Below the pieces are notes generated by a model that was given only the letters and a program-made list of their open reading frames with translations, was not told the origin of the DNA and did no database searches. From NCBI RefSeq assembly GCF_024345975.1, contig NZ_JAGQCD010000031.1, positions 1 to 34,269 on the forward strand: a stretch of 34,269 bases of DNA. The letters are read 5' to 3'. How positions within the stretch are numbered: position 1 is the first letter of the stretch; every line of letters starts with the position of its first letter. Source of the DNA: Cyanobium sp. Cruz-8D1. Its GTDB lineage: Bacteria > Cyanobacteriota > Cyanobacteriia > PCC-6307 > Cyanobiaceae. Below are positions 16,073-23,743 of the stretch, one piece after another. The translations under genes and the position numbers were made by a program.

Positions 16073-17452
16073 TCAGATGTACAGCTCTTCGCGGGGATAA
16101 CCCACACGATTCTGGGGCCGGCTGCCATAAACAGCCGAAAGCAATAGGAGAATACCGATCCGGCCCACGAACATGCCGATCATCAGCACCAGCTGCCCCC
16201 AACGGTTGAGCTGGCTGGTGACCCCCACGTCAAGGCCCACGGTGCCGAAGGCGGACACGCAGGTGAACAGTTTTTCCAGGAAGGTGAAGGCCTCACTCCC
16301 CGGGGTCCCGGCGGTGGTGTCGCCCAGCCCCAGCAGCAACGCCATCAACAGGATGAAAAGGCCCGAGCCGAGGGTGACACCCACGGCTTTGAGGATGACC
16401 TTGAGGGGGATCTCCCGGTTCCTCACGACCACTTGGTCATGGCCGCGGAGGGTGGAACGGGTGGCGGCGATCAGGGCCGCGAAGGTGGTGGTCTTGATGC
16501 CTCCACCGGTGCCACCGGGACTGGCGCCGATGAACATCAGGATGATCATCAACAGGATGCCCGAGTCGGAGATTGTTTCCACACTGATGGGAATGGTGTT
16601 GAAACCAGCGGTGCGGGTGGTGATCGACTGGAACAGGGTGACCTGAATTTTTTCCCAGAGGTTCATCTGTCGCACCATTTCCTCTGTGGCGAAGTGTTCG
16701 GTGAACAGCAGACCCACGGCCCCCAACACGATCAGCAGGATGGTGGTGCGAATCACCAGCCGGGTGTGCAGGCTGAGGCGGCGGAGGCGCTCCAGGCGGA
16801 AGCGGTTGACCCAGATGTCGTTGGTGACGCGCCAGCCGATGCCGCCCATGACGATGAGCAGACCGATCACCCCGTTAACGACGGGTTGGCCCTGGTAACC
16901 CACCAGGCTGTCGCGCCACAGCCCGAAACCGGCGTTGTTATAGGCGCTGATGCAATGAAACAGGGCAGCCCAGAGCCGCTGGCCCTTGTCGGGGATATCG
17001 GTGAAGCCGAAGTTGTAGAGAATCAGTGTGCCGATCCCGATCACGATGGCGGCGATCAGCAGAATCTGGTTCAGGGTGGGGCCGATGCCGCCGACACCGA
17101 AGTCGTCCAGGGCGCGCCCCTTATCGAGCCGCTGGCGCAGGCCCGAGCGGCCCTGGACGAAGCCCTGAAGGAAGGTGGTGATGGCCATCAACCCCAGGCC
17201 GCCGGTGAGGATCAGCCCGGCCAGGGCCACCTGGCCGGCAAAGGTGAGATCGACGCCCACATCGATGATCGACAGGCCCGTGACGGTGATGGCGGAGGTG
17301 ACGGTGAAGAGGGCCTCCCAGAGGCCCACCTCATCGCTGGAGCAGAGCGGGCTGGCCAGCAGCAGCGTGCCGAAGGCGATCACCAGCACGCCAGTGACCA
17401 ACGTGAACTGCGGCACCGTCAGACGATGCCGCCAACTCTGCAGTCGCCTCAT
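16073..17452 (-). CDS. ktrB: Ktr potassium channel subunit KtrB (TrkH/NtpJ type)
   Basis: This 459-aa membrane protein has the four M-P-M repeats of the superfamily of K+ transporters. The pore loops are ITVTGLSI, SAYNNAGFGL, ITTRTAGFNTI and SAFGTVGLDV, each with the central Gly of the filter. The segment FIGASPGGTGGGIKTTTFAAL is the intramembrane loop that gates the pore. It takes up K+, with Na+ dependence in cyanobacterial Ktr. Its ATG overlaps the TGA of the peroxiredoxin gene (ATGA), suggesting coupled translation, and ktrA lies 76 bases downstream. Confidence 0.97.
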   Translation of the reverse strand: MRRLQSWRHRLTVPQFTLVTGVLVIAFGTLLLASPLCSSDEVGLWEALFTVTSAITVTGLSIIDVGVDLTFAGQVALAGLILTGGLGLMAITTFLQGFVQGRSGLRQRLDKGRALDDFGVGGIGPTLNQILLIAAIVIGIGTLILYNFGFTDIPDKGQRLWAALFHCISAYNNAGFGLWRDSLVGYQGQPVVNGVIGLLIVMGGIGWRVTNDIWVNRFRLERLRRLSLHTRLVIRTTILLIVLGAVGLLFTEHFATEEMVRQMNLWEKIQVTLFQSITTRTAGFNTIPISVETISDSGILLMIILMFIGASPGGTGGGIKTTTFAALIAATRSTLRGHDQVVVRNREIPLKVILKAVGVTLGSGLFILLMALLLGLGDTTAGTPGSEAFTFLEKLFTCVSAFGTVGLDVGVTSQLNRWGQLVLMIGMFVGRIGILLLLSAVYGSRPQNRVGYPREELYI

Positions 17453-18084
17453 TTGTTGGGCTGGGGGGTCATCCGGAGATAGGGACGGATTTCAGTGACA
17501 CCCTTGGGGAACTTCGCCCGGGCTTCGTCGGTGGGGATCGAGGGCACCACCACACAGTCCTCGCCGTCCTTCCAGTTCACAGGAGTGGCCACCTGGTGGT
17601 GGTCGGTGAGCTGGAGGGAATCGATCACGCGCAGAATCTCATCGAAATTGCGGCCCGTGCTGGCGGGATAGGTGATCTGCAGACGCAGCTTCTTGTTGGG
17701 GTCGATGATGAACACCGAGCGAACTGTGAGGTTGCTGAGGGCATTGGGGTGGATCATGCCGTACAGGCTGCTCACCTTCTTATCGCTGTCCGCCAGGATC
17801 GGATAGTCGACGGTGGTGTTCTGGGTCTCGTTGATGTCGCCGATCCAGCCCTTGTGGCTCTCGGCGGAATCGACGCTCAGGGCGATGGTCTTGACGTTGC
17901 GCTTCTCCCATTCGGCACGCAGCCGGGAGACTTCGCCCAGCTCCGTCGTGCAGACGGGGGTGTAGTCAGCGGGGTGGGAGAACAGCACCACCCAGCTGTC
18001 GCCGGCGAAGTCGTAGAGATTGATCGGGCCGAGCTGGGATTCCTGAGTGAAATCAGGAACGGTGTCGCCCAGTTGCAGGGTCAT
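17449..18084 (-). CDS. 1-Cys peroxiredoxin (Prx6 type)
   Basis: This 211-aa thiol peroxidase reduces H2O2 and alkyl hydroperoxides. The peroxidatic Cys is C45 in HPADYTPVCTTELG. The Prx6 C-terminal domain holds FDEILRVIDSLQLTDHHQVATPVNW, then EDCVVVPSIPTDEA, and ends with RPYLRMTPQP. There is no canonical resolving Cys, which fits the 1-Cys group. The ATG at 18084 matches the family N terminus (LQLGDTVPDFT). However, the reading frame is open upstream into hflX with no stop codon between, so this may be made as part of a fused protein as well as alone. No Shine-Dalgarno sequence is seen before the ATG. The gene overlaps ktrB (ATGA). Confidence 0.95.
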   Translation of the reverse strand: MTLQLGDTVPDFTQESQLGPINLYDFAGDSWVVLFSHPADYTPVCTTELGEVSRLRAEWEKRNVKTIALSVDSAESHKGWIGDINETQNTTVDYPILADSDKKVSSLYGMIHPNALSNLTVRSVFIIDPNKKLRLQITYPASTGRNFDEILRVIDSLQLTDHHQVATPVNWKDGEDCVVVPSIPTDEARAKFPKGVTEIRPYLRMTPQPNK

Positions 18085-19788
18085 CGGAGAAGAATTGGCG
18101 CCGGTTGATGCTGGCACAGCCTTGGGGCCGCCCGTCGTGGTGGCGGTGGGCCAGGACTGCAGCTCCTGGCGCAGGTGCTGGAGACCCAGGTCCGCCGTGG
18201 CCGAAACGAACAGCATGGCCGGATCCACGGCCCTGGCCCGTTCCAGTTCGCCGCTGGCGCAGCGGTCGATCTGGTTGCCGATCACCCGCCTCGGCATGGT
18301 GGCCTGCAGCGAATCGAGGATCGCCTGCACGGTGGTGAGCTGCTCGGGCCAGGCCGGATCGGCCAGGTCGACGACGATCAGCAGGCCGTCGGCATCGAGG
18401 GCCTCCTCGAAGGTGGAGCGGAACGCCTCCATCAGCTGGGGGGGCAGCTCGCGGATGAACCCCACCGTGTCGGTGACCAGCAGCGGCTGGCCGCCTGTGC
18501 TGCTGTCTGCTGCCCACTCGATCCGGCGGGTGGTGGGATCGAGGGTGGCGAAGAGCTTGTCCTCGGCCAGCACGGCCTGGCTGCCACTGGCCCCGGTGAG
18601 GGCGTTGAGCAGGGAGCTCTTGCCCGCATTGGTGTAGCCCACCAGGGCCAGTCGCGGCAGGTCGCGGCGTCCCTCCCGCAGGCGGGCCCGGTGGGCCCCG
18701 AGCCGCTGCACCTCCCGCTGCAGCCGTTCGATGCGCCGGGCGATGGCGCGCCGGTCCTTCTCCAGTTGGGTTTCGCCCGGGCCACGGGTGCCGATGCCGC
18801 CCCCCTGCCGCGACAGGCTCAGTCCCCGGCCGGTGAGCCGCGGCAGGCGATAGCGCAGCTGGGCCAGCTCCACCTGCAGCCGTCCGGCGCCGCTCGCCGC
18901 CCGCTGGGCAAAGATGTCGAGAATCAGCTCGCTGCGATCACTCACCGGCAGGTCGAGCAGTCCCTCCAGGTCGCGGGCCTGGCCCGGGGTGAGTTCCCGA
19001 TCGGCCACCACCAGGCTGGCGCCGACGCGGCGCGCCTCCAGGGCCGCCTCCCGCAGCTTGCCTTCCCCCCAGGGGCTACGGGAGACGGGGCCATGGCGGC
19101 GCTGCTCCACCCGGCCTACGGGAATGGCACCGGCACTGCGCACCAGGCCTTCCAGTTCGGCGATGCGCCGGTCGCTCAGGGCCCGGTCGCCGCTGGTCTG
19201 CACCAGCAGCAGCACCCGCTCGGGGCCCTCCAGGGCGGGGGCTGGTTCGGCATTCGGCGGCTCCGCCGCGGCGAGGGCGACGGGGTCCAGGTCACAGAGT
19301 TCGGCCAGATCCCCTCCTAGGACGCAGTTCCAGGCGCGAGCACCGCTGCCGGCCGGGGTGTGGATCGCCGCCGGCCAGCGTCCGCCGGTGTCCGGTTGCT
19401 GGCCGAAGCGCAGCCAGAGGTCAGGTGCCACGTCCATGCCCACCACGGCCTCCTGGGCTGAGGGCTGCAGGTGCGCCTGGCGTCCAGCCCCTGCGCTGGT
19501 GAGCAGTCGCAGGTTGTGACCCTGACGCCTGGAGGGACCGGGAAGTTTCTCCAGCAGGCGCGCCGAATGGTCCAGCTCCCCCACCCAGAGCAGACGGCAG
19601 AGGCCGCGCCCGTCCACCACCAGGGTGAGGGGCAAGTTCAGGTCGCGGCCCTCGGCCGCCAGGCGCTGCAGGGTGAGCAGATCCGCCACCGCATCGCCCG
19701 GGTGGCGGCGGTGGCAGATCTGCTCCAGCCGGCGCCGCTCCGCGGGCCGCAGGCCCACTGTTTTACCGGCCAGCACCCCTTGCCTCAA
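17449..19788 (-). CDS. hflX: Ribosome-associated GTPase HflX, in frame with peroxiredoxin
   Basis: HflX splits stalled ribosomes. The N-terminal HflX domain contains VLLLVQTSGDRALSD, the subdomain-II helices follow with GGGIGTRGPGETQLEKDRR, and the GTPase domain has G1 GYTNAGKSS, G3 DTVGFIRELP and G4 NQID (usual NKID or NKxD). The TTG at 19788 overlaps the TGA of the upstream HAD gene (TTGA); a GTG four codons later is an alternative. HflX should end near LRQELQSWP at about 18140. Instead the frame continues through a Pro/Ala/Thr-rich linker (18085-18150) into the complete Prx. A 779-aa HflX-Prx fusion is therefore encoded. Whether it is made, or Prx starts separately, is open. HflX alone would be about 550-568 aa. 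Confidence 0.92.
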   Translation of the reverse strand: MRQGVLAGKTVGLRPAERRRLEQICHRRHPGDAVADLLTLQRLAAEGRDLNLPLTLVVDGRGLCRLLWVGELDHSARLLEKLPGPSRRQGHNLRLLTSAGAGRQAHLQPSAQEAVVGMDVAPDLWLRFGQQPDTGGRWPAAIHTPAGSGARAWNCVLGGDLAELCDLDPVALAAAEPPNAEPAPALEGPERVLLLVQTSGDRALSDRRIAELEGLVRSAGAIPVGRVEQRRHGPVSRSPWGEGKLREAALEARRVGASLVVADRELTPGQARDLEGLLDLPVSDRSELILDIFAQRAASGAGRLQVELAQLRYRLPRLTGRGLSLSRQGGGIGTRGPGETQLEKDRRAIARRIERLQREVQRLGAHRARLREGRRDLPRLALVGYTNAGKSSLLNALTGASGSQAVLAEDKLFATLDPTTRRIEWAADSSTGGQPLLVTDTVGFIRELPPQLMEAFRSTFEEALDADGLLIVVDLADPAWPEQLTTVQAILDSLQATMPRRVIGNQIDRCASGELERARAVDPAMLFVSATADLGLQHLRQELQSWPTATTTGGPKAVPASTGANSSPMTLQLGDTVPDFTQESQLGPINLYDFAGDSWVVLFSHPADYTPVCTTELGEVSRLRAEWEKRNVKTIALSVDSAESHKGWIGDINETQNTTVDYPILADSDKKVSSLYGMIHPNALSNLTVRSVFIIDPNKKLRLQITYPASTGRNFDEILRVIDSLQLTDHHQVATPVNWKDGEDCVVVPSIPTDEARAKFPKGVTEIRPYLRMTPQPNK

Positions 19789-20447
19789 GGACGCCGCACC
19801 AGCAGACAGCGCACGCCGGCGGCTCTGGCGCCGGCCCCATCCTCTGGGCTGTCGCCCACGTGCCAGACCTGGGAGGGCGTCAGAGCGAGCGACTCCAGGG
19901 CGGCCTGGAAGGGCACCGGCGACGGCTTGGCGGCTCCGGCGCTGCTGGAGACCACCACCGCCTCGAACAGATCTGCCAGGCCCAGGCCCTCCAGCAGCGG
20001 TTGCAGCCGCCGGTCGAAGTTGCTGACCACGGCCAGGCGCAGGCCCGCCCCATGCCAGCGGCGCAGAACGGTAGGCACATCGGCATAGACATGCCACAAC
20101 GTTGGGTCGGCGAAGCGATCGAACAGGGCGTCATGCAGCGCCGCCGGGGCCACCGCCGCGCCGGCCGCCACCAGGACGGCGTCGATGCGCTCCCCCCACC
20201 AGTGGCGCTCTGCCTGAAGCAGGCTGTCGCTGTCGAGGCCGGGGAAGGCCAGGGCAGGGGCCTGACGCAGGATGCCAGGGAAGGCCTGGTCGATGGCGTC
20301 AGCGGCGACGCTGAGGCCGTGCTCAGCCGCCATGGCGGCATAGGTATGGCCCACCGAGCGGCGCAGTCCGATCAAGGTGCCCATGGCATCCAGCAGCAGG
20401 CCCCGGGGACGGGGCCAGGTCGACGGCGAAACCGTCATGGCCGTCAT
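19785..20447 (-). CDS. HAD-IA family hydrolase with altered second motif I residue
   Basis: This 220-aa protein has the HAD fold: motif I LLLDAMGTLI (nucleophile D20), motif II VVSNFD, motif III lysine in GAAKPSP, motif IV HVGDSPEDGAGARAAG. The cap is the C1 helical type. The second Asp of motif I (D-x-D) is replaced by Met (DAMGT), as also in some REG-2-like/HDHD3 members, which often have DAxGT. That Asp is the general acid/base, so classical phosphatase activity may be weak. The substrate is unknown. ATG at 20447 overlaps the ndbB stop (ATGA), and its own stop overlaps the TTG of hflX (TTGA). Confidence 0.88.
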   Translation of the reverse strand: MTAMTVSPSTWPRPRGLLLDAMGTLIGLRRSVGHTYAAMAAEHGLSVAADAIDQAFPGILRQAPALAFPGLDSDSLLQAERHWWGERIDAVLVAAGAAVAPAALHDALFDRFADPTLWHVYADVPTVLRRWHGAGLRLAVVSNFDRRLQPLLEGLGLADLFEAVVVSSSAGAAKPSPVPFQAALESLALTPSQVWHVGDSPEDGAGARAAGVRCLLVRRP

Positions 20448-21658
20448 GGCTTCCAGTCGGCCAGCCAGCCGGCGGCCACCCGCAGCTGGTGGGGCCGGCC
20501 CGGCAGGCGGGCCAGGTAGGCCAGACGGCGCAGCTGGTAGGCGGCAGGGCCGGCCAGGGTGACACCGGCGGCGGTCAGGCTGGCTTCGCCGACGCCGAGA
20601 CTCATCATTTCGCCCAGGTCATTCCACTGGAAGGGCTCCAGGGGTTCGCCCCGGAGGGAGCGGATCAGGTTGGTGGCCAGCACCGAGGCTTGCTGAAAGG
20701 CCACCTGGGCCGTGGCTGGAGTGGCGGCGCCGGGGGCCTCGCCGGCCGTTCCGTCAGGATCCACAGGGGCGGCGAGATCTCCCGCCACGAACAGATCCCC
20801 ATGGTTCTGCAGGCACAGATCGGGCCCGCAGAGCAGGCGGCCGCGGCTGTCGCAGGCGGGAGCGGGGTCGATCCTGGGCGCAGCGAAGCTCAGACCGGCG
20901 GTCCAGACCACCGCCCGAACGGCGAGGGACTCGCTGTGGACGGTGCTGTCACCGTCCGGGTGGCACTGGAGCGTGATTGCTTCGGCCTCGACCGCCTGCA
21001 CGCGGGTACGGGTCCGCAGCCGCACGTCACGGCGCCGGAGGGCAAGGGCGGCCTGTTCGCGGTTGAAGGCCCTGGACTGGGGCAGCAACTGCGGCCCCTG
21101 CTCGATCAGCTCGATCACAGCACTGCCCTCGGCCATGTCAGCGAGCTTGCAGGCCAGTTCCACCCCAGTCGGCCCTGCCCCCACCACGGCGATGCGCTGC
21201 AGGGGCTTCCGCAGGCTTTTCAGGTCAGCCACCAGGCACTGGAGCCGCTCCACATCGGCCAGGCTGCGGAAGCCCAGGCTGTGGCGGTCGGCCCCTGGCA
21301 CCGCGAAGGTGTTGCTCTGGGCCCCCGTGGCGATCACCAGTCGGCCAAAAGAGAGCGTGCGGCCCGCCGCCGTGTGCAGCTGCTGGTGGTCGGCATCGAT
21401 CCGCTCCACCCGGTCCTGCAGCCAGGCCACGCCACGGCCCGCCAGCAGGCCGTCGTAGCGGGGGGCAATCTCCCAGCGGCGCAACTCGCCGCTGAGCAAT
21501 TCATACAGAAGCGGCAGAAACAGGAACCGGTCGTTCGGCTCAATCAGCAGGACAGGGGGATGGTCCTTTTGCTGAGCCAGCGCCAGAGCCGTGTACAGCC
21601 CCCCGAAGCCACCCCCGACGATGACGACGTTCTGGGCCTTTTGCCGTTGCCCTTGCAT
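20444..21658 (-). CDS. ndbB: NdbB-type NAD(P)H quinone oxidoreductase
   Basis: This 404-aa flavoprotein has two Rossmann folds. The FAD-binding part has VVIVGGGFGGLYTALAL, FRFLFLPLLYEL-type residues and VIATGAQSN; the NAD(P)H part has IAVVGAGPTGVELA; and near the C terminus VAGDLAAP binds FAD. The tail DLGEMMSLGVGEASLTAAGV, TLAGPAAYQLRRLAYLARLPG is typical of the cyanobacterial NdbB / plant NDC1 group. These reduce demethylphylloquinone and take part in phylloquinone synthesis, besides acting as type 2 NADH dehydrogenase. The membrane-associated C-terminal helix fits. It leads a tight minus-strand cluster and is divergent from cysH with only 51 bases between starts. Confidence 0.9.
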   Translation of the reverse strand: MQGQRQKAQNVVIVGGGFGGLYTALALAQQKDHPPVLLIEPNDRFLFLPLLYELLSGELRRWEIAPRYDGLLAGRGVAWLQDRVERIDADHQQLHTAAGRTLSFGRLVIATGAQSNTFAVPGADRHSLGFRSLADVERLQCLVADLKSLRKPLQRIAVVGAGPTGVELACKLADMAEGSAVIELIEQGPQLLPQSRAFNREQAALALRRRDVRLRTRTRVQAVEAEAITLQCHPDGDSTVHSESLAVRAVVWTAGLSFAAPRIDPAPACDSRGRLLCGPDLCLQNHGDLFVAGDLAAPVDPDGTAGEAPGAATPATAQVAFQQASVLATNLIRSLRGEPLEPFQWNDLGEMMSLGVGEASLTAAGVTLAGPAAYQLRRLAYLARLPGRPHQLRVAAGWLADWKP

Positions 21659-22532: not shown

Positions 22533-23306
22533 GTGCAGGCTTGCCAGCTTCGCTGGCTGCTGATCGGCAACAGCCGCTGGCACTGGGCTCTGGCCCAGAA
22601 CGGCGAAAGCGGTGCCGACCAGCCGCAGCAGTTCCTGCACCTGCCCCCACCGACGTCACCCCTGACGGCGGCGGTGGACCTTCCCCTGGTCTGGGCTGCG
22701 GTGGGGCCGGTCCCACCCTGCGCCGGTCTACCGGCCGAGACGCGCCTGGCTCTGGACGATGTGCCGCTGGCTGAGGCCCCCCCCTGGCTGGGCATCGATC
22801 GAGCCCTGGCCGGTTGGTGGGCGGCGCAGCTTGCAGGCGGCCCGGTGCTGGTGGCCGATGCCGGCACCGTGCTGAGCCTCACCCGGGTGGACGGCTGCGG
22901 CCGATTCGCCGGCGGCCGGCTGATGGCGGGTGCCGCCCTGCAACTGAGGGCCATGGGCGCTGGCACCCAGGCCTTGCCTTCCCTGGAGGGGGGCCTGGCG
23001 AGTGCCGGTGGCGGGGAGCCCTGGCCCCGGGCCACCGACGCGGCGATGCGATTGGGGGTGGCCGAAGGCCTGGCCGCCGCGGTGCTGGAGGCCGGACGCC
23101 AGGCCCGGGCGCTGGATGACAAGTGCCGGATTGTGCTCACCGGTGGGGATGGGCCGACCCTGTGGCCGCTCCTGCGCAGGCCGTCCGGGCTGGGGGAGGA
23201 GGGTCTTCAGCACCGTCCCGAGCTCTGCCTGGAGGCCCTGATGGCCCTGCGTCCCGCTCCGCCGATCGGGGTCGCTCAGGCCAGGCCCAGATCCTCAAGA
23301 ATCTGA
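22533..23306 (+). CDS. coaX: Type III pantothenate kinase, PHOS1 aspartate altered
   Basis: CoaX phosphorylates pantothenate in the first step of CoA synthesis. The 257-aa protein has the type III layout: N-terminal LLIGNSRWHW (normally D-x-G-N-T/S), a G-x-D block WLGIDRALAGWWA, the pantothenate/phosphate motif VADAGTVLSLTRVDGCGRFAGGRLMAGAAL, and C-terminal CRIVLTGGDG. The Asp of the first phosphate-binding motif is Ile here. GTG at 22533 is one base after the cysH stop, and the end overlaps the end of the convergent prxQ gene by 31 bases. The family call is secure but activity needs testing because of the missing Asp. Confidence 0.85.
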   Translation: MQACQLRWLLIGNSRWHWALAQNGESGADQPQQFLHLPPPTSPLTAAVDLPLVWAAVGPVPPCAGLPAETRLALDDVPLAEAPPWLGIDRALAGWWAAQLAGGPVLVADAGTVLSLTRVDGCGRFAGGRLMAGAALQLRAMGAGTQALPSLEGGLASAGGGEPWPRATDAAMRLGVAEGLAAAVLEAGRQARALDDKCRIVLTGGDGPTLWPLLRRPSGLGEEGLQHRPELCLEALMALRPAPPIGVAQARPRSSRI

Positions 23307-23743
23307 TCCGCCATGGTTTCGGCCTTCACCTTGAGATAAAGGCGTTCCAACTTGCCCTCGGCATCGATCATGAAGGTGTGCCGCATCATGCCCATATACT
23401 CCTTGCCCATGAACTTCTTGAGCCCATAGCTTCCGTACGACTCAGCCACGGGGCAGGGCTCGGCATCGGTGAGCAGGGTGAAGGGCAGGTCGTATTTGGC
23501 GACGAACTTGCCGTGGCTGGCCGCGCCGTCCTTGCTGATTCCCAGCACCCGGATGCCGTGGGTTTCGAAGCCACTCCACCGATCCCTGAAATTGCAGGCC
23601 TCCTTGGTGCAGCCCGGAGTGTCGTCCTTGGGGTAAAAGTAAATCACAACACGCTGCCCCCTCAGGGCGGACAGGGACACGGCCTCACCCTTCTGGTCGG
23701 GGAGGGTGAAATCGGGGGCTGGATCTCCCACCTGCAGGGCCAT
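23276..23743 (-). CDS. bcp: Peroxiredoxin Q / Bcp
   Basis: This 155-aa thioredoxin-dependent thiol peroxidase removes H2O2 and lipid hydroperoxides. It has the Bcp fold: PAPDFTLPDQKGE, YFYPKDDTPGCTKEACNFRD with peroxidatic C45 and resolving C50 (the PrxQ alpha2-helix spacing of four), GISKDGAASHGKFVAKYDLPFTLLTD, and KEYMGMMRHTFMID. Both cysteines are present, so it is an atypical 2-Cys enzyme. ATG at 23743 is clear. It is convergent with coaX with a 31-base 3' overlap. A second peroxiredoxin lies at 17449-18084. Confidence 0.96.
   Translation of the reverse strand: MALQVGDPAPDFTLPDQKGEAVSLSALRGQRVVIYFYPKDDTPGCTKEACNFRDRWSGFETHGIRVLGISKDGAASHGKFVAKYDLPFTLLTDAEPCPVAESYGSYGLKKFMGKEYMGMMRHTFMIDAEGKLERLYLKVKAETMADQILEDLGLA

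Follow-up and report, generated by a model that had tools for sequence, protein, structure and literature searches.

The hflX and prx genes form one reading frame

In the 34,269-nucleotide contig NZ_JAGQCD010000031.1 of Cyanobium sp. Cruz-8D1, the whole of which was analysed and is called the window hereafter, the gene of the GTPase HflX and the gene of a 1-Cys (Prx6-type) peroxiredoxin (Prx) form a single reading frame on the minus strand, running from TTG 19788 to TGA 17449 (17449..19788) without any internal stop across its 779 codons. This open frame had been reported, with no strand, in a first-pass annotation of the window, together with a linker of about 22 residues and a complete peroxiredoxin with its ATG at 18084 and a cysteine at position 45, and all of this was confirmed. 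The HflX part comprises codons 1-546 (18151..19788, minus strand). The linker begins after Trp546 and consists of 22 residues, codons 547-568 (18085..18150, minus strand), which correspond to the intergenic spacer of relatives, and prx occupies 17449..18084 (minus strand), with Cys45 in HPADYTPVC. Within the linker lies a conserved DNA element (18107..18119, minus strand), which is extended -10-like and presumed to be the prx promoter. The computed masses are 84.7 kDa for the fusion protein and 23.7 kDa for Prx alone. The hflX start was placed at TTG 19788, where it overlaps the stop of the preceding gene (19785), a TTGA overlap also found in the relatives L096, L107 and L120; the longest mechanical open reading frame (ORF) extends upstream to GTG 20097 and has 882 amino acids.

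The profile TIGR03156 (GTPase HflX) matched residues 195-544 with 382.8 bits (cut-off 216.75), and GTP-bdg_N, GTP-bdg_M and MMR_HSR1 matched this part as well. GYTNAGKSS, DPTTR, DTVGFI, NQID and SAT were read in its translation, and presumably have the functional roles of the corresponding HflX motifs (Walker A, DTVGF, NQID and SAT). On profile and motifs the HflX part was assigned to the HflX-family GTPases, and ribosome binding and splitting are predicted for it. NF008280, which describes the E. coli-type HflX with its C-terminal domain, scored 259.4 bits, below the cut-off of 441, and only positions 10-358 of its 426 were covered. HflX is summarised as a stress-related ribosome-splitting factor in PMC10784650, whose passages on HflX contain neither the word peroxiredoxin nor the word fusion.

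In the C-terminal part, AhpC-TSA (residues 574-702, 105.5 bits) and 1-cysPrx_C (residues 724-763, 37.5 bits) both exceeded their cut-offs, and the equivalog NF009668 scored 207.2 bits, slightly below its cut-off of 211. The cysteines of Prx are Cys45 and Cys177 (Prx numbering); PADYTPVC, which ends at Cys45, fits PxxxTxxC, which we take to be the peroxidatic motif. The genome contains a single HflX match, and its next-best Prx matches have at most 34% identity. An AlphaFold model of the fusion, computed with a 62-row alignment, was discarded, as HflX was predicted with moderate confidence, most of Prx had a predicted local distance difference test (pLDDT) score below 50 and the predicted template modelling score (pTM) was 0.43. 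About 5 kb from the fusion, the window also encodes a 155-residue peroxiredoxin (23276-23743, minus strand), which we take to be PrxQ/Bcp-like.

The fused frame lies in a tightly packed series of minus-strand genes. It is preceded by the gene of an NADH-dehydrogenase-like flavoprotein (20444-21658) and by that of a HAD-family hydrolase (19785..20447), which adjoins hflX and whose stop overlaps the hflX start. Downstream lies trkH (16073..17452), whose start overlaps the prx stop (ATGA), and beyond it follow trkA and then anmK on the same strand.

Distribution of the fusion among relatives

The locus was surveyed in the Cruz-8D1 genome, in 36 genomes of the same genus and in named relatives (Cyanobium, Synechococcus, Aphanothece, Microcystis elabens and records of metagenome-assembled genomes). 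Among the 36 genomes, the alignment covers the full length of the protein without a stop in 12 of the nearest group, and four genomes of two further groups are stop-free too (G032, G001 and G005 over the whole length, G034 from residue 189); the remaining ones include genomes with a stop or a frame change immediately ahead of Prx. The 85 loci classed comprise 20 fused loci, 51 with adjacent but unfused genes, 11 with prx farther off (more than 900 nt in this classing, more than 450 nt in the coding used for the tree below) and three without prx in the stretch covered. Three of the 51 overlap out of frame. In L094, L098 and L111 the hflX frame passes the Prx ATG out of frame and overlaps prx by about 30 nt, an alternative outcome of stop loss.

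The first-pass annotation had proposed a comparison with related genomes, in which a stop after HflX would speak against the fusion. None of the 51 adjacent but unfused loci belongs to the close clade of 15 genomes, here called clade A, which includes Cruz-8D1 and in which spacer length and frame are identical; the stops of the other relatives do not refute the fusion. They lie 9 nt before the Prx ATG in L060 and 18 nt before it in L061-L065, and in L037, L085 and L088 HflX ends 56, 82 and 325 nt upstream of the Prx ATG, respectively. L061, although titled a metagenome-assembled genome of Bifidobacterium breve, has an hflX-prx region 76% identical to the window, clusters with uncultured cyanobacterial records and is probably misnamed. 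The other fused loci of the survey form clade B (L078 and L083) and clade C (L074, L075 and L084, with the stop-bearing L080 nested inside), and a search of 121 genomes of the family added clade D (L184-L186), which belongs to another genus and whose assemblies consist of one or two contigs each. In clade D the linker is longer and the element lies 50-62 nt ahead of the ATG. Synechococcus sp. BO 8801 and Microcystis elabens FACHB-917 are among the fused strains. G117 and G152, suspected from their long frames in the search of the family, proved to be unfused, and in a class-wide set of 145 genomes only Cruz-8D1 and one congener spanned both parts among the matches listed.

The fused state was followed on a tree with 92 rows for 93 loci, from which L111, a long row, was omitted; L113 and L189 apparently stem from one contig. 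Five changes of state were counted, every one of them forced by the starred branches of the tree, which corresponds to four gains and one loss or to five gains. Branch support was 99/91 for clade A, 100/100 for clade B, 100/100 for clade C including L080 and 100/98 for clade D. Stop loss joining the two genes in one frame has occurred repeatedly, and the tree suggests about four origins within the family. The natural HflX-Prx fusion frame proposed for the window is thus supported and extends to four lineages, more broadly than had been claimed.

Two side observations were made in the survey. In L096, L107 and L113 a gene of 613-615 codons, transporter-like by eye, sits between hflX and prx, and prx lacks the upstream element. 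G005, G010, G011 and G015 (L045-L048) carry a second Prx6-type gene; hflX was not found beside three of these genes, and L045 failed to match the pattern used.

Start signals of prx and a conserved element in the linker

The Prx ATG is at the same place in all 20 fused loci and in the three loci of clade D. None of 82 loci (20 fused, 51 unfused and 11 distant) has a Shine-Dalgarno-like word (GGAGG, AGGAG, GAGG, GGAG, AAGG or AGGA) at -16 to -4. The absence of such a sequence before the Prx ATG of the window, correctly recorded in the first-pass annotation, is therefore shared by fused and unfused loci and does not argue for the fusion. The prx leader is pyrimidine-rich (69-79%).

The element has the consensus CTRTGNCARSATC, and its version in the Cruz-8D1 genome is CTGTGCCAGCATC, 23 nt before the Prx ATG. 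In 62 of the 71 adjacent loci, TRTGNCANNAT sits 22-41 nt ahead of the Prx ATG. As a measure of conservation, the core T[AG]TGNCANNAT was counted up to a distance of 70 nt from that ATG and found in 17/20 fused, 45/51 adjacent but unfused and 1/11 distant loci, the element being absent before prx in 10 of the 11 far loci; the upstream hflX coding sequence, used as a control, gave no match in 49.2 kb. Six of the nine adjacent loci that miss the core fit a loosened pattern and three (L095, L122 and L126) do not; the element of L060 has one mismatch. The core also precedes prx in L120, in which 2.7 kb separate it from the end of hflX. When the element was defined more strictly and combined with the Prx start, 35 of 400 genomes of the family, in three of 59 genera, contained it; this form misses the TGTGGCACGAT variant. 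Of the seven other sites in the Cruz-8D1 genome, one, TGTGCCAGCAT (L173, motif at 1501), is 31 nt ahead of a 62-codon frame.

The element is kept whatever the frame of Prx relative to HflX, and also when HflX ends 56, 82 or 325 nt upstream, which indicates that it acts at the DNA or RNA level. Within clade A its CCA codon is fixed in 15/15 genomes, whereas a fixed A occurs at none of 117 comparable fourfold sites (98 in Prx and 19 in the HflX C-terminus). In an upstream profile aligned on the motif, for which 69 loci (about 33 effective) were picked via a loose motif form, C-T-R-T-G-N-C-A-R-S-A-T-C emerged with ten columns above 1 bit, the highest column outside reaching 0.80 bits, and no -35 signal was seen in these columns. 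We take TRTGN followed by a -10 hexamer to define an extended -10 promoter. The element of the window (TGTGC-CAGCAT) and the consensus (TRTGN-CARSAT) fit this layout, with A at position 2 and T at position 6 of the hexamer, in loci chosen by such a pattern. The first base of the hexamer is C, not T, in 95% of the weighted sequences, the pattern having allowed only C or G there and 68 of the 71 adjacent loci fitting it. Apart from this C in place of T at the first hexamer position, the element looks like an extended -10 promoter, and it is presumed to drive prx. According to the part of PMC3219970 consulted, cyanobacterial promoters commonly lack a strong -35. A terminator scan gave one weak terminator-like match, located within hflX, against a chance expectation of 0.3, and Rfam gave no match at the gathering score, which bears only on known RNA families.

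Evolution of the linker

The ratio of nonsynonymous to synonymous differences per site (pN/pS) was computed for the linker of clade A and for its flanks. It is 0.69 for the whole linker, and falls into 0.95 for the ten codons before the element, 0.47 for the five element codons (with a pS of only 0.085) and 0.37 for the last seven codons, compared with 0.13 (0.06-0.26) for the last 48 HflX codons and 0.018 for the first 70 Prx codons. The linker, chiefly its first part, therefore shows little sign of protein constraint, and the lower value of its last seven codons may equally stem from the prx leader. Codon adaptation is 0.35 in the linker (codons 545-568), 0.62 in HflX and 0.67 in Prx, the reference set being a rough one made up of rpoA and nine ribosomal proteins, with approximate starts for two of these ten sequences.

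Drift was also simulated along the clade A tree with the element held fixed, and under six settings all 15 linkers stayed stop-free in 82-97% of the runs. A frame open in 15 of 15 genomes is thus expected from drift and is no evidence for selection, so that the stop-free frame was dropped as a sign of it.

Origin and meaning of the joined frame

Two genes of an operon have probably been merged here by loss of a stop, leaving HflX with a Prx tail and free Prx still produced from the embedded signal and ATG, with the merger tolerated. Near relatives have the hflX stop a few codons ahead of the Prx ATG; in clade A it has been lost in frame, and any ribosome that initiates at hflX must continue through Prx. 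The frame is observed; its predicted product is an HflX, encoded by the only HflX match in the genome, to which Prx would always be attached by a loose tail of 22 residues. The conserved element and the conserved ATG lie inside the join. With them prx appears to retain the start signals of its relatives, namely the ATG, the pyrimidine-rich leader without Shine-Dalgarno sequence and the element 23 nt upstream, now within linker codons. Since prx has kept its own ATG, leader and element, a free Prx of 23.7 kDa most likely continues to be translated from a separate transcript, and this is probably the main Prx form. The first-pass annotation had offered two alternatives, the fusion as the sole product or alongside a separate Prx that arises by internal initiation; the conserved element and ATG favour the second. 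As prx seems to have retained its start signals within the join, the merger looks tolerated, not purposeful, and behaves like a by-product of tight gene packing in genomes that are rich in GC and offer few stops by chance.

Several results weigh against this interpretation. The sites compared were partly chosen by the patterns sought: the Prx ATG was located by requiring a Met at most seven residues from the LGD motif, by which none of the 82 loci was dropped, and the element pattern was derived from the very loci counted, so that its count expresses conservation and is no independent test. A sigma-70 consensus scan of 17900-18400, which also requires a -35, found no promoter. Nor is the element enriched in the Cruz-8D1 genome (eight matches, nine for the reversed control), and it may therefore be an operator or a special promoter and not a general -10. 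A Prx expressed far above HflX could not be read from codon adaptation, 0.67 and 0.62 being no useful difference. Some constraint may act on the joined frame or on the leader: without the element, the linker of clade A has a pN/pS of 0.70 with a bootstrap interval of 0.38-1.46, besides the 0.37 of the last seven codons. Finally, spacer length changed 0 times in clade A compared with 2.8 changes expected from the unfused clades (P 0.06; P 0.14 for changes of frame).

The stop might also have been removed by a sequencing or assembly error. The other two frames had been described as free of stops before the Prx ATG, which is true, but the +1 frame stops exactly on that ATG (A-TGA); the accompanying statement that no one-base slip would restore an early stop fails for one direction, in which a slip would yield an ordinary ATGA overlap. 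The relatives remove this worry, since the same frame with identical spacer length is found in the 15 genomes of clade A. The frame is likewise joined in G023, a genome assembled as a single contig, and in the three clade D genomes of another genus, which consist of one or two contigs each. A sequencing slip is thereby excluded, and an error of any such kind is extremely improbable. The nature of the element leaves more room for doubt. It might be an operator or RNA element controlling prx instead of a promoter, as its ten columns above 1 bit include a C where -10 boxes favour T, no -35 accompanies it and it is rare in the genome. Its TRTG-N-CANNAT layout, 22-41 nt from the ATG, is however that of what we take to be an extended -10. 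The lack of a strong -35 is, moreover, usual in cyanobacteria according to the part of PMC3219970 consulted, and a role other than promoter, while possible, appears the less likely one.

The fusion itself might have been selected, with HflX delivering Prx to stalled or splitting ribosomes for peroxide removal, or with the oxidation state of Prx controlling HflX. About four separate origins, the purifying selection on both domains, the unchanged linker frame and length in 15 genomes and the pN/pS of the last seven linker codons are consistent with this. The first ten linker codons nevertheless drift freely, the open frame is expected by chance, L080 within clade C has a stop, 51 of the 85 loci keep the adjacent genes apart, and the element and ATG are preserved as if prx were still read alone, so that selection for the fusion appears unlikely. 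A ribosome-tethered Prx as the selected function is possible but unsupported, and the same applies to the link between ribosome rescue and oxidative stress drawn in the first-pass annotation: drift predicts an open linker, and the constancy of spacer length is one weak hint in the opposite direction. A more far-reaching version also seems improbable, in which all HflX of these picocyanobacteria would be obligatorily fused to Prx and carry a peroxidase to ribosomes that have stalled, the join would have been reached independently in four lineages for its help under photo-oxidative stress, and a promoter hidden in the linker would supply free Prx. Alternatively, the fused chain might be made and then cut in its loose linker into separate HflX and Prx. 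A Pro/Ala/Thr-rich and highly variable linker is a plausible protease target, but its sole conserved stretch coincides with the DNA element that is also found outside coding frames, and such cleavage seems quite improbable.

If stop loss has produced a tolerated merger, the fused strains are predicted to contain HflX at about 85 kDa and Prx at both 85 and 24 kDa. The locus offers a clean and repeated case in which stop loss has turned operon neighbours into a single frame, for which relatives that retain the stop serve as controls, and in which a regulatory-looking DNA element is trapped within coding sequence. For annotation, the Prx start in fused genomes may be overlooked and the gene labelled HflX only.

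Comparison with known systems

No report of an HflX-Prx fusion was found among the papers listed by a literature search, at the level of titles and the openings of abstracts. Among natural peroxiredoxin fusions, we have in mind the Prx5-glutaredoxin of Haemophilus, which is presumably similar in that Prx is joined to another protein; its partner there would be its reductant, whereas here it is a translation GTPase. The HflX part resembles the relatives of this ribosome-splitting GTPase in PDB entries 5ady, 8a57 and 8vkw in its profile match above the cut-off and its GTPase motifs. The matches to the solved HflX proteins stop at residues 544-550, without extending into the C-terminal domain that E. 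coli HflX possesses (chain 8-358 of 426), and the chain runs on into Prx. Likewise, residues 569-779 resemble the Prx6-type 1-Cys peroxiredoxins of PDB entries 6p0w, 7kuu and 1prx (E 1.7e-90), with the C-terminal 1-Cys domain and Cys45, but no stop precedes them here and Prx is the C-terminal part of HflX. As to the origin of the join, the part of PMC10666635 consulted describes a mutated upstream stop that extends a gene into its neighbour. In that overlap of same-strand neighbours, as here, the upstream stop becomes a sense codon and the next stop lies inside the downstream gene; in the hflX-prx loci, however, it is the regular stop of the downstream gene that comes next, which joins two whole proteins in frame, and repeatedly within one family.

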